DNA of 52,182 bases from Sphingomonadales bacterium (GTDB taxonomy: Bacteria > Bacteroidota > Bacteroidia > UBA7662), in NCBI GenBank assembly GCA_016872215.1, contig VHAX01000013.1, forward strand, positions 1 through 52,182, read 5' to 3'. This document shows positions 11,308 to 36,203 of the stretch, piece after piece (the stretch's first letter is position 1; every line of letters starts with the position of its first letter). Position numbers and translations under genes: made by a program. The notes under the pieces are model-generated. The model worked only from the letters and a program-made list of their open reading frames with translations, had not been told where the DNA came from and did not search any database.

Positions 11308-13184
11308 TCAGCACCTTTATTCAAATATACCATTAGTATGCTAATGTCGGCAGGAGAGACCCCTGAAAGCCGTGAAGCTTGTCCCAATGATTCTGGCCTC
11401 ATTGCCGACAATTTTTCCCTTCCCTCATGCGACAAAGCGCGTATCGTTTGAAAATTAAAATCAGGCTTTAGGTAGATGTGATCCAAATTCGACATCCTGC
11501 GTGCCTGTTCTTCCTCCCGTTCAATGTAACTGCGGTACTTCCATTGAATTTCCGCCTGTTCGGCATCCTCCTCTGGAAAATCAACTAAAAAGGAGCTAAG
11601 GTGTCCAGAGGCCGCCGACAATTCTCGTATTCCTATGCCAGGGCGCAGCAAGATGCTACCCCACTTCACCTTTTGGTTAATCGGCGCCTCTTCGTGATCG
11701 ATTAACACAGGGTTCACCTCCTTTGGCTCAGCGGTTTTCTGCCGCAGAAACTTCGTGATCGACTCCACATTCCTCACCTTTTGCTCAACACGTGTGTGTC
11801 GATCTTCGCCTATTAAACCGTTGCGAAAGGCGATTTCAGAAAGGCGGATGTCAGCATTGTCCTGACGCAACAAAATCCTGTGCTCCGCGCGCGAGGTAAA
11901 CATTCGATATGGTTCATCCGTACCCTTATTGATCAAATCATCGATCAGCACGCCTATATAGGCCTCAGAACGGCTCAAAACCAGTGATTGCCGGTCGTTT
12001 ATGGCCAAATTGGCATTGGCGCCAGCGAGTAAGCCCTGACAAGCAGCCTCCTCATAGCCTGTGGTTCCGTTGATTTGTCCCGCAAAAAACAATCCCTCCA
12101 CATTCTTGGTCTCAAGCGACGGTCTCAATTGCGTTGGCGGAAAGTAATCGTACTCGATGGCATATCCCGGCCTGAACATACGCGCCTGTTCGAATCCGGG
12201 AATCTTGCGAAGCGCCGCGTACTGAACTTCCTGTGGCAAAGAAGTTGAAAACCCATTGATATACATCTCCACGGTATTCCACCCCTCCGGTTCCACAAAA
12301 ATCTGGTGCCGATCACGTTCAGCAAACCGGTTGATTTTATCTTCTATACTCGGACAATAACGCGGACCCAATCCCTTGATGCTACCATTGTACATGGGCG
12401 AACGGTCGAAACCCGTGCGCAGGAGATCATGCACAGCCTCATTGGTGTAGGTAATCCAACATGATCGCTGCCTTTCCAATGGGCGGGTATCGGTGAACGA
12501 AAACTTACCCGGGTGTTCATCGCCCCTCTGTTCCTCCATCTTCGAGTAATTCAGGCTGCGCCCGTCAATTCGGGGTGGCGTGCCTGTCTTCATACGCCCC
12601 GTAGTGAAACCAAGCGCCATCAACTGTTCGCTTATTCCATAGGATGCGTGCTCTCCGCTTCTTCCGCCTCTTTGTTGCTTCTCCCCCACATGCATGAGAC
12701 CATTGAGAAAGGTGCCTGTCGTTAAGACCACGGCTCTTGCCAAAAAGTGCGTTCCCATGGCAGTGCGCACACCCTCAACCCGGGTGCCACTATCAGCCAA
12801 CAGCAGCTCCACCACAGCGTCTTGCCAAAAGTGAACGCCCTCGGTCTCCTCCAGCATTTGTCGCCAAAGCGCCGCAAACATCATCCTGTCGTTTTGCGTT
12901 CGTGGACTCCACATGGCGGGGCCCTTGGATCGATTGAGCATTCGAAACTGAATGGCCGTTCGGTCGCTCACAATCCCAGAGTAGCCACCGAGAGCATCAA
13001 TCTCGCGAACAATTTGTCCCTTCGCTACACCACCCATTGCCGGGTTACACGACATCTGGGCAATGGTCTGCATATTCATGCTTATAAGCAACACCTTCGA
13101 GCCCATACGCGCGGCCGCGGCTGCAGCCTCACAACCAGCGTGGCCCCCGCCCACCACAATCACATCATAGTCGACCCGCATCAT
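11295..13184 (-). CDS. mnmG: tRNA uridine-5-carboxymethylaminomethyl synthase, FAD subunit
   Basis: The protein has 629 residues. With MnmE it installs the carboxymethylaminomethyl group at U34 of tRNAs for split codon boxes. The FAD-binding start VIVVGGGHAGCEAAAAAARMG, the two GidA signatures (GPRYCPSIEDKI and GQINGTTGYEEAA) and a helical C-terminus ending in the L.R..RISGVSPADI-type tRNA-binding tail are visible. Length is normal. MnmG genes are often close to the origin, which fits the oriC candidate 8 kb away. The gene overlaps ybeY by 4 nt and the methyltransferase by 13 nt. Confidence 0.98.
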   Translation of the reverse strand: MMRVDYDVIVVGGGHAGCEAAAAAARMGSKVLLISMNMQTIAQMSCNPAMGGVAKGQIVREIDALGGYSGIVSDRTAIQFRMLNRSKGPAMWSPRTQNDRMMFAALWRQMLEETEGVHFWQDAVVELLLADSGTRVEGVRTAMGTHFLARAVVLTTGTFLNGLMHVGEKQQRGGRSGEHASYGISEQLMALGFTTGRMKTGTPPRIDGRSLNYSKMEEQRGDEHPGKFSFTDTRPLERQRSCWITYTNEAVHDLLRTGFDRSPMYNGSIKGLGPRYCPSIEDKINRFAERDRHQIFVEPEGWNTVEMYINGFSTSLPQEVQYAALRKIPGFEQARMFRPGYAIEYDYFPPTQLRPSLETKNVEGLFFAGQINGTTGYEEAACQGLLAGANANLAINDRQSLVLSRSEAYIGVLIDDLINKGTDEPYRMFTSRAEHRILLRQDNADIRLSEIAFRNGLIGEDRHTRVEQKVRNVESITKFLRQKTAEPKEVNPVLIDHEEAPINQKVKWGSILLRPGIGIRELSAASGHLSSFLVDFPEEDAEQAEIQWKYRSYIEREEEQARRMSNLDHIYLKPDFNFQTIRALSHEGREKLSAMRPESLGQASRLSGVSPADISILMVYLNKGAEWKH

Positions 13185-32962: not shown

Positions 32963-32980
32963 GATTTCGGTGTGGAATGC

Positions 32981-32998
32981 CAAAAATAGCTATTTTTG
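32981..32998. promoter_or_regulatory. Palindromic divergent promoter rpoN/asnS
   Basis: CAAAAATAGCTATTTTTG is a perfect 18-bp palindrome. Each half is a TAnnTTTG -7 box: TATTTTTG on the plus strand (32991-32998) for asnS and on the minus strand (32988-32981) for rpoN. Start codons lie 17 nt (asnS, 33016) and 18 nt (rpoN, 32962) beyond the boxes, so both leaders are short. Polymerases could not use both sides at once. Confidence 0.65.
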
Positions 32999-33015
32999 AG
33001 CCCAAACGTGAAAAA

Positions 33016-34539
33016 ATGAGCGCAACGACGATCGATGTTCTATCTAAACATATAGGGGATACGGTGGATTTGCAGGGATGGCTGATGGGCAAACGCACGG
33101 GTAAGGGCCTGGTTTTTCTGGTGATGCGCGATGGCTTTGGCATGTGCCAGTGTGTGGTCGACGAGCAACAGGTGTCGCCCGCAGTCTTCGAAGATGCCCG
33201 TCGTTTGACGCAGGAGAGCAGTTTCCGGTTGACGGGTGAGGTGGTGGCAGATGAACGACAAATGGGGAGTGTAGAGGTTCGGGTACATGCGCTCGACATT
33301 TTGTCGATCAGTCAAGAATACCCCATCTCACCGAAGGAACACGGCATCGATTTTTTGATGGACCACCGTCACCTGTGGCTACGCAGTAAGCGCCAGTGGG
33401 CCATCATGCGCATCCGCAACACTCTGATCATGGCCATCCACGAATTTTTTCAGTCGGAGGGCTTTATTCAGATGGATGCACCCATTTTTACCGACAATGC
33501 TTGTGAGGGCACGTCGACCTTATTTGCCACCGATTTCTACGGCCACCCCGCGTATTTGAGTCAGAGTGGACAACTATACGGCGAGGCGATGGCCATGGCT
33601 TTTGGAAAGATCTATACATTTGGCCCCACCTTTAGAGCAGAAAAGTCGAAAACACGCCGGCATCTGAGCGAATTCTGGATGATAGAACCCGAGATGGCCT
33701 TCCACGACCTTTCTATGAACATGGATGTGATCGAGAGTTTTCTTCGCTATGTGGTGCAAAAGGTGCTCGAAAAGAACACGCTCGAACTCGAAGTTATTGG
33801 TCGCGATCCGGCGGTTTTGCAGCGTGTGGCGGAACCCTTTCCCCGCATCACCTATGAGGATGCCGTGGCCATCCTGAAAGGCGAAAAAGAGGTGGGCGGA
33901 CAAAACGCACTGGAGACGCTGGAGGCTGATTTAAAGCAATTAGAGGCGCGTGCTACCGGAGTGCGCCAAGAGATCGTACAAAGGGAAGAGCAATTGAGGA
34001 AACCGGGACTCAAAAAAGGGGAAATAGGGTTCTACCAGTCGCGACTACAATCACTCAAAGAGGAGTTATCAGAATATGATGAGCAAATGCGCAACATCCC
34101 CATTTGGTTGAAATCGGCCGCCCAGTTTAGGATGGGCAATGATTTTGGAGGTTCCGATGAAACGGTGCTGACCCGCCTGTTTCAAACTCCGATTATGGTC
34201 TACAACTGGCCACATGAGGTAAAGGCCTTCTATATGAAGCGCGACGAGGACGATGCCCGCTGGGCAAAGGGGGTGGATGTTCTGGCCCCGGAGGGATACG
34301 GAGAAATCGTTGGGGGTGGCGAACGGGAAACGAACCTCGATTGGCTCATCAAAAAGATCAACGAACATGGCTTGCCTATGGAGGCATTTGAATGGTATCT
34401 CGATTTGCGTCGATATGGGTCGGTGCCCCACGCGGGCTTCGGACTAGGATTGGAGCGACTAGTGGCCTGGGTATGCAAGTTGCCACACGTACGGGAGACC
34501 ATCCCCTTCCCGCGGATGTACGGACGGATTGCGCCGTAG
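33016..34539 (+). CDS. asnS: Asparaginyl-tRNA synthetase with coiled-coil insert
   Basis: The protein has 507 residues from the ATG at 33016. The N-terminal OB fold binds the anticodon (VDLQGWLMGKRTGKGLVFLVM). Class II motif 2 (FRAEKSKTRRHLSEFWMIEPE, from 207) and motif 3 (GFGLGLERLVAW, near the end) are intact. Residues about 295-360 form a charged coiled coil (LEADLKQLEARATGVRQEI ... LQSLKEELSEYDEQ) that ordinary AsnRS of about 465 residues lack. The insert replaces a short loop in the catalytic domain. Confidence 0.95.
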   Translation: MSATTIDVLSKHIGDTVDLQGWLMGKRTGKGLVFLVMRDGFGMCQCVVDEQQVSPAVFEDARRLTQESSFRLTGEVVADERQMGSVEVRVHALDILSISQEYPISPKEHGIDFLMDHRHLWLRSKRQWAIMRIRNTLIMAIHEFFQSEGFIQMDAPIFTDNACEGTSTLFATDFYGHPAYLSQSGQLYGEAMAMAFGKIYTFGPTFRAEKSKTRRHLSEFWMIEPEMAFHDLSMNMDVIESFLRYVVQKVLEKNTLELEVIGRDPAVLQRVAEPFPRITYEDAVAILKGEKEVGGQNALETLEADLKQLEARATGVRQEIVQREEQLRKPGLKKGEIGFYQSRLQSLKEELSEYDEQMRNIPIWLKSAAQFRMGNDFGGSDETVLTRLFQTPIMVYNWPHEVKAFYMKRDEDDARWAKGVDVLAPEGYGEIVGGGERETNLDWLIKKINEHGLPMEAFEWYLDLRRYGSVPHAGFGLGLERLVAWVCKLPHVRETIPFPRMYGRIAP

Positions 34540-34579
34540 CCCCCCTGTCGGATAGCAACAACGGTGACCCTTGTGGCCG

Positions 34580-35060
34580 CCCGGCAACGGCGACCAACAT
34601 CACAATACGGAATAACCGATCATCTTAACACATGAGCGACTGCTTTGTGCCATAGGGACGGAACTCCAGGAAGAACCCCCCATTAAGGGACTATGAGGGT
34701 TCAGCCGATGAAGCGAAACCAGGTGGCGATGGGCTCATATAATCTGGCATACCTACTTTCAAATCACCAGCATTATCGGTGGCAAGCGCACTGAGGTAAT
34801 AGTCGCGCATGTAATAGTAATGCGCAGCGGCAATCATGGTGATTAGTCCCGACACCAATTAAGGCGATTTTCCATTTACCGACGGCCTGACTTCTTTCGA
34901 AGAAGAACACCCTGGCGGTAAATATGGCGATAAGCCCCATAAAAAACGCAAATCCTGTAACGTTGACCGGGTTGGGGGCGGCGCTGAGGAAGAGTGAATG
35001 TGTTGAAATAAGGCTAAATTTTGGGAAAAATATAACAATAACAAGCGGCCGCCAATTTTG
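34580..35060 (-). pseudogene. Proteorhodopsin-type microbial rhodopsin, decayed remnant
   Basis: Minus-strand pieces in changing frames give the first four helices of a light-driven pump. Helix A to B loop: TGFAFFMGLIAIFTARVFFF then ERSQAVGKWKIALIGVG (to 34850). After an extra G in the GGG at 34848-34850: GLITMIAAAHYYYMRDYY (helix B). After another shift: EPIATWFRFIG, then TGA (34703-34701) where family members have Trp of 'RYxDW', then TLIVP (helix C). Later: FFLEFRPYGTKQSLM and MIGYSVL/VMLVAVAG (helix D). Helices E-G, with the retinal lysine, are missing. No start codon is seen. Several independent lesions make this a true pseudogene. Confidence 0.78.
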
Positions 35061-35143
35061 ATTAAAAACGCCCGGATTTTATCAAAAAAACAGCAAAAAA
35101 ATATCGAATTGCGCCCATTGGGGGGGTGATCCCAAAAATTTTT

Positions 35144-36052
35144 TCAGGCAGGGCGGCTTCCCCGGTGGATCAGCCAGATGCCCGTTAGGATAGAACCCAT
35201 ACCAATCAGGTGAGACAAACCCAATAACTCACCAGCCCACCACCCCCAACCCAAGGCCACAAGCGGCATTAGGTAGGTGGTGGTGGAGGCGAAAACGGGT
35301 CCGCTGACTTGAATCAGGCGGTTGAAGAGCACCAGGCTGATCGCAGATCCCAGTACCGATAGTAATGCTAGTCCACCTATCGCCCGCAATGCCTCGGGTT
35401 CCGCACAACGCTGGAGGAAGTCGCCCGAAAACAGGATGACCAAGGTGAAGGGTGCCACCAAAGCTAGGGGTATGGCTGCCGAAAGCAAGGGATTGAACTG
35501 TCGGAGGTGTCGACCCACGGTATTAACGCTGGTTCCATACATGAGGGTGGCCGCAACCACGAGCAGGGCCCACTGCCAATTAGGGTCGAATTGACCATTA
35601 CCACGGATGAGAATCAAAATCAACGCCCCGCTGAAGCCAACTCCCACCCCCAGAAGTTTGATTTTATTGAAGGGTAACCCAAACCACCAAACCCCCAGCA
35701 ATAGTGTGAACATGGGCGTGAGGGCGTTGAGGGCACCGGCGGTTGAACTTTCCAGCCGAGTCTGTGCAAGGGCAAACAAAAAGGCGGGGATGCCGTTGCC
35801 CACTAGTCCCACCACCCCCAGCCAGAGTAATTTACTACGCACATCTTCTACACCCGCACGCACTAAGCGGTGCACCATAAAGGGCAGCAAGGTGAGGGCG
35901 GCGGCGGAAATGCGAAAAGCGCCTACCTGAACGGCTGTGAACGCGGTTAGAGCCGTTTTGATGAGGATGAAGGAGCTGCCCCAAACGCATGATAAAAACA
36001 ACAAGGCCACCCACGGCCAATAGCGGTGAGTGGATGTGGTTAGGGCGGCCAT
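35144..36052 (-). CDS. EamA/DMT-family transporter
   Basis: The protein has 302 residues from the ATG at 36052. The upstream extension of the frame is Cys/His/Pro-rich and unlike the family start. Ten hydrophobic helices are visible in two EamA repeats, beginning VALLFLSCVWGSSFILIKTAL and with the second repeat near QWALLVVAATLMYGTSVNTVG. The typical PLVALGWGWWAGE end is present. The substrate is unknown. It is distinct from the EamA gene at 24032. A -7 box TACTTTTG (minus, 36095-36088) lies upstream. Confidence 0.9.
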   Translation of the reverse strand: MAALTTSTHRYWPWVALLFLSCVWGSSFILIKTALTAFTAVQVGAFRISAAALTLLPFMVHRLVRAGVEDVRSKLLWLGVVGLVGNGIPAFLFALAQTRLESSTAGALNALTPMFTLLLGVWWFGLPFNKIKLLGVGVGFSGALILILIRGNGQFDPNWQWALLVVAATLMYGTSVNTVGRHLRQFNPLLSAAIPLALVAPFTLVILFSGDFLQRCAEPEALRAIGGLALLSVLGSAISLVLFNRLIQVSGPVFASTTTYLMPLVALGWGWWAGELLGLSHLIGMGSILTGIWLIHRGSRPA

Positions 36053-36203
36053 GTGCAGGAGGTGGGATGGATGCCCCAGGGGCGCAGCAAAAGTACACCT
36101 ATATAAGCACGGGTGCGATGATCTTCTCATGAATTTGGTTGCCAATGCGCCCGATATAGGTGGTGGAAGAGAGGTGGGTGCAACAAAAGAAGCGCGGCAC
36201 GCT

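Follow-up and report, generated by a model that had tools for sequence, protein, structure and literature searches.

A proteorhodopsin-type pseudogene beside asnS, accompanied by a wrecked blh, in a bacterium of the Bacteroidota lineage UBA7662

The window analyzed here is a stretch of 52,182 nucleotides (contig VHAX01000013.1, positions 1 to 52,182) from the draft assembly GCA_016872215.1, a Sphingomonadales bacterium that GTDB places in UBA7662 of the Bacteroidota. Within it, a gap of 604 bp (34540-35143 by ORF coordinates) separates a gene that we take, from the earlier note and the shape of its protein, to be asnS from a second gene that presumably encodes an EamA-like transporter. The frames of both neighbors are open. 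On the minus strand of the gap lies the remnant of the 5' half of a proteorhodopsin-type gene, its pieces distributed over more than one frame (Table 1).

Table 1. Features of the rhodopsin remnant and its flanks, in window coordinates
Feature	Position	Strand	Basis
asnS, flank, ordinary constraint	32977..34539	+	ORF, ortholog comparison, codon-position counts
Deletion junction; helices E to G and most of the spacer to asnS missing, ~50 bp left	34540..34589	-	alignment, junction search
Rhodopsin pseudogene, remnant of helices A to D	34590..34985	-	blastn to G002 (34985-34607) and G001 (34985-34590), alignments
Stretch with five frame-changing length differences	34600..34860	-	alignment; near 34858, 34728, 34685, 34628, and 34605
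TGA at Trp codon; adjoining codon Asp in 7/7 open genes	34701..34703	-	alignment
Remnant of the first eight codons (G002 count)	34986..35009	-	alignment, upstream sequences
EamA-like transporter gene, other flank	35144..36145	-	ORF, comparison with relatives

In blastn comparisons with the open rhodopsin genes of two congeners, the remnant shared 78% DNA identity with that of G002 over 390 bp (E = 2e-62; 230 bits) and 77% with that of G001 over 405 bp, compared to a maximum of 28.8 bits among 500 first-order Markov random sequences with the dinucleotide makeup of the segment. The G002 rhodopsin as a tblastn query matched 34985-34857 (66% of 44 amino acids; E = 4e-12) and 34888-34589 (53% of 106 columns; E = 1e-22), and the segment scored 88.6 bits at best, compared to at most 21.6 bits in the 500 random sequences (465 of which gave any match). 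The identity to G002, the outscoring of 500/500 random sequences, and the same surroundings in the congeners all point to descent from a rhodopsin gene. Alignable homology reaches from the region of the start codon into helix D, most of which is readable, and is lost near 34590. The earlier note had placed a rhodopsin remnant with recognizable helices A to D on the minus strand behind asnS, and these matches bear it out, with the pieces it quoted for helices A, B, and C lying where it put them. Its further remark that the helices can be read by eye needs qualification: the remnant was found by DNA and tblastn comparison, but the Pfam rhodopsin profile (PF01036) gave no match in the host genome at an E value of 0.001, and the two stop-free pieces of the remnant matched neither PF01036 nor anything else in Pfam above the cutoff, whereas the G002 frame does match. 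A 38-residue piece of the remnant, searched alone, placed proteorhodopsins at the top among solved structures, weakly (E = 0.0065). By place and sequence, the wreck is the ortholog of a congener frame (L022:341-1135) that matches PF01036 (E = 1.8e-38) and that finds entries named proteorhodopsin first among solved structures (9jov; E = 2.4e-60).

Unlike proteorhodopsin pumps, the wreck has no start codon, single frame, helices E to G, or retinal-binding lysine, and the codons of its D/T/E motif are changed. Opposite the ATG of G002, the window reads ATT (35009-35007), and the earliest possible start in the first rhodopsin frame, at 34940, falls within helix A. Where at least three frame breaks had been noticed before, the alignment shows five frame-changing length differences (+1 twice, +2 once, -1 once, and -5 once) and, additionally, an in-frame loss of 3 bp. 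The nonsense codon reported at an expected tryptophan is a TGA, at a position where each of the seven open genes encodes Trp. With the ATT start, the five indels, and the TGA, no single open frame with a start codon is left. In pumps of this type, the D/T/E motif marks positions of the proton path, with the Asp proton acceptor and the Glu donor in helix C, and the Schiff-base Lys sits in helix G. The codons aligned to Asp, Thr, and Glu are all changed in the remnant, with Asp to Gly at codon 95 and Glu to Gly at codon 106; the Glu change sits beside a gap, and the residues called around the 5-bp gap are alignment-dependent. As the alignment stops in helix D, helices E to G are absent, in agreement with the first reading, and the remnant therefore has no retinal-binding lysine and falls short of the seven helices of a rhodopsin. 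Also mostly missing from the window is the spacer between rhodopsin and asnS, which measures ~205 bp in G002. The 77-base junction (34536-34612) had no match except itself better than an E value of 0.26 in six genomes, no direct or inverted repeats of at least 12 bases were found in 34400-35160, and a 16-base piece taken from the junction is found nowhere else in the window.

The distribution of changes over codon positions indicates that the remnant does not evolve under selection as a rhodopsin. Across 393 gap-free columns aligned for three congeners (the window species, G001, and G002), changes specific to the window fell on codon positions 1/2/3 as 17/19/29, those specific to G001 as 1/0/14, and those specific to G002 as 2/1/9, with eight columns differing in all three. 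In columns where at least four of five outgroups agree, the respective counts were 11/15/12, 0/0/4, and 0/0/1. In the neighboring asnS, the changes of the window were 21/8/91 over 1,560 columns. When positions 1 and 2 together were set against position 3, the remnant differed from the asnS of the window (Fisher's exact test, P = 4e-5) and from the two open rhodopsins (P = 4e-4). Codons invariant in the seven open genes number 104, of which 100 are readable in the remnant and 26 are changed, including the stop; leaving out each open gene in turn gave 0 to 2 changes in 104 to 106 invariant codons. An alternative hypothesis is that the remaining frames still yield a short membrane peptide, kept for a new use, and two 55-codon open frames with rhodopsin-like residues (34773-34940 and 34691-34858) could supply one. 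We consider this very improbable, as the changes are spread evenly over codon positions across the remnant and the stop-free pieces lack any Pfam match above the cutoff.

The pseudogene claim rests on one draft assembly of one strain, in 53 contigs, and an assembly or sequencing error could in principle have disrupted a gene that is intact in the organism. The chance of this appears minimal, however, given the 26 changed codons out of 100, the five frame-changing indels, the lost start, and the large deletion, next to flanking asnS and EamA-like frames that are both open, and given the wreck, on a different contig, of another gene linked to it in function (see below). We are highly confident in reading the remnant as a unitary pseudogene of a light-driven proton pump of the proteorhodopsin type. 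Roughly estimated, its decay may span about half of the branch, a figure worked out by hand with third positions taken as neutral, on a branch that includes the stem of the other two congeners. The statement in the earlier note that phototrophy was lost recently thus stands as to the loss, but "recently" is too strong.

The same place in relatives supports descent from an open gene. PF01036 was searched in 100 genomes, host included, and matched in 24; among the 20 relatives that share its genus, family, or order with the host, 14 had a match. In G002, the end of the EamA-like gene, the rhodopsin, and asnS follow in order on one contig, so that the sister genome carries an open rhodopsin exactly at this place. 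In G001, an open rhodopsin lies beside the EamA-like gene at a contig end, and asnS is found near the end of another contig; in the assembly of the third congener, G003 (85% complete), an asnS ortholog and an EamA match are both missing. Rhodopsin and asnS also lie tail to tail on one contig in three genomes of the same family (G006, G008, and G010), and in G006 the EamA-like gene comes next after the pair. This order is not family-wide: the available asnS flanks of G004, G007, and G011 (same family), like those of G017 (same order), showed no rhodopsin, though these genomes have one elsewhere. No rhodopsin remnants were detected at an E value of 1e-3 in the flanks (up to 1,500 bp) of rhodopsin-less relatives, covering asnS and EamA in G005, G018, and G019 and EamA only in G013 and G015. 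A single loss is the simpler reading, given the open gene of the congeners and its position next to asnS in three genomes outside the genus. In DNA trees of asnS (13 genomes) and crtB (nine genomes), the window species falls next to the group formed by the other congeners, a split that is weakly supported in both (54/39 for asnS and 46/34 for crtB).

Several irregularities were observed in these relatives. The open rhodopsin of G001 (L021:880-1056) has no in-frame ATG, GTG, or TTG before helix A, and ~58 bp found upstream in G002 are missing there, which perhaps reflects incipient decay or a fault of the assembly. Also in G001, the EamA-like match (C38:1054-2043) contains one internal TGA. In a class-level relative, G076 (C1:1676815-1677481), the rhodopsin is split between two frames, the second of which contains a TAG; this could be a fresh break or a sequencing error.

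No intact rhodopsin was found elsewhere in the host: with the G002 rhodopsin as the query, its genome (99.3% complete) gave the wreck alone, even at an E value of 10. A search for heliorhodopsin gave no match in six genomes, and none in its controls either. New relative to the earlier note, the gene for retinal formation, blh (beta-carotene 15,15'-dioxygenase; PF15461), is also wrecked, on another contig. The profile gave 0 matches in the host genome, and the wreck was located at the orthologous place on contig C39, between genes that we presume to be methyltransferase-like and tadA-like. Unlike the CrtY-Blh fusion of G001 and G006, the C39 piece lacks the cyclase part and roughly the N-terminal half of Blh. 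What remains (about 11725-12158) corresponds to the C-terminal half of G001 Blh, with which it shares 69% DNA identity over 344 bp, and is broken in frame near its end. Against Pfam, it reached PF15461 at an E value of 0.014 and 15.4 bits, under the cutoff of 28. Its codon-position changes (14/10/22, compared to 9/3/20 in G001) show only mild relaxation, and divergence at blh is much greater in G002 (28/21/30). No working gene of its own for retinal formation was thus found in the host genome.

Among the 20 relatives, PF15461 matched in nine, all of them among the 14 with a rhodopsin, and in none of the seven rhodopsin-less genomes, host included (Fisher's exact test, P = 0.007, with kinship ignored and some genomes incomplete). 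A blh of one's own is not strictly required, as 5 of the 14 rhodopsin-bearing relatives have no Blh match and pumping without it may therefore occur; these five (G004, G010, G016, G017, and G020; 85 to 99% complete) could be users of outside retinal or reflect assembly gaps. Rhodopsin bearers without blh are also reported in PMC12422013. By the same token, the host might have kept pumping through another rhodopsin that the assembly missed, taking its retinal from outside, and a completeness of 99.3% leaves room for an unassembled second copy. That only the wreck is matched at so permissive a threshold in so complete a genome makes this reading very improbable, and on the evidence above we reject it together with an assembly error and a retained peptide. 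The preferred reading remains that of a pseudogene: together, the wrecks of the pump and of blh indicate that this lineage, since diverging from its congeners, has lost the pump as well as the retinal supply.

The Blh of relatives merits mention in its own right. In G006, Blh forms the C-terminal portion of a 667-amino-acid protein with a lycopene cyclase domain (L066:1471-3474), a natural CrtY-Blh fusion in which both domains were verified by Pfam, in this genome alone; shared frames suggest the same in G008, G011, G014, and G001, where the cyclase frame continues into Blh up to the contig end. Of 198 genomes surveyed across the class, 26 exceeded the Blh cutoff, and in 13 of these the Blh frame measured 650 to 699 amino acids, so the fusion may be common. 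Among the titles and openings of abstracts surveyed, none mentions a CrtY-Blh fusion, and one concerns a crtIBY fusion (PMC10016063). A weak, sub-cutoff Blh match with two internal stops (G051:C2:252249-252587) is possibly another blh wreck.

Carotenoid genes, by comparison with pump and retinal gene, have stayed. The host genome has crtB (C7), crtI (C7; two matches over the cutoff), and a separate lycopene cyclase (C18), and a carotenoid is therefore probably still made. We infer that light-driven pumping ceased to pay in this lineage, which would have stopped selection on the pump and the retinal gene; both would then have been left to accumulate point changes and deletions. Carotenoid synthesis, apparently kept, would have been retained for another use. 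A wider possibility is that the whole genus is midway in losing rhodopsin phototrophy, with both genes dead here and the pump of G001 open but without a start through a 5' deletion; we regard this as rather unlikely and put it forward tentatively.

Gene loss of this sort is already known. Proteorhodopsin is described as missing from some members of groups that otherwise have it, namely, Methylophilaceae (PMC6794327) and Tenacibaculum (PMC5561996), and the marine Methylophilaceae retain another rhodopsin (PMC6794327). What is described there is absence, whereas the present genome still carries the decaying gene at its old position, together with its retinal gene. The available text of PMC6794327, PMC12661815, PMC12422013, PMC9239080, PMC3646047, and PMC5561996 describes no proteorhodopsin pseudogene. 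The present locus is a clean, controlled additional example, strengthened by the second wreck.

Phototrophy by rhodopsin is usually scored as present or absent, and a half-decayed pump together with a half-decayed retinal gene, set against the open copies of the congeners, gives the difference a direction: loss, rather than a failure to gain. It also serves as a warning that a profile search misses such remnants. In this lineage, the pump and the retinal supply both went and the carotenoid genes stayed, and the half-decayed genes offer a clock on the loss. A genus-wide loss, if true, could be linked to a change of niche and given a date.
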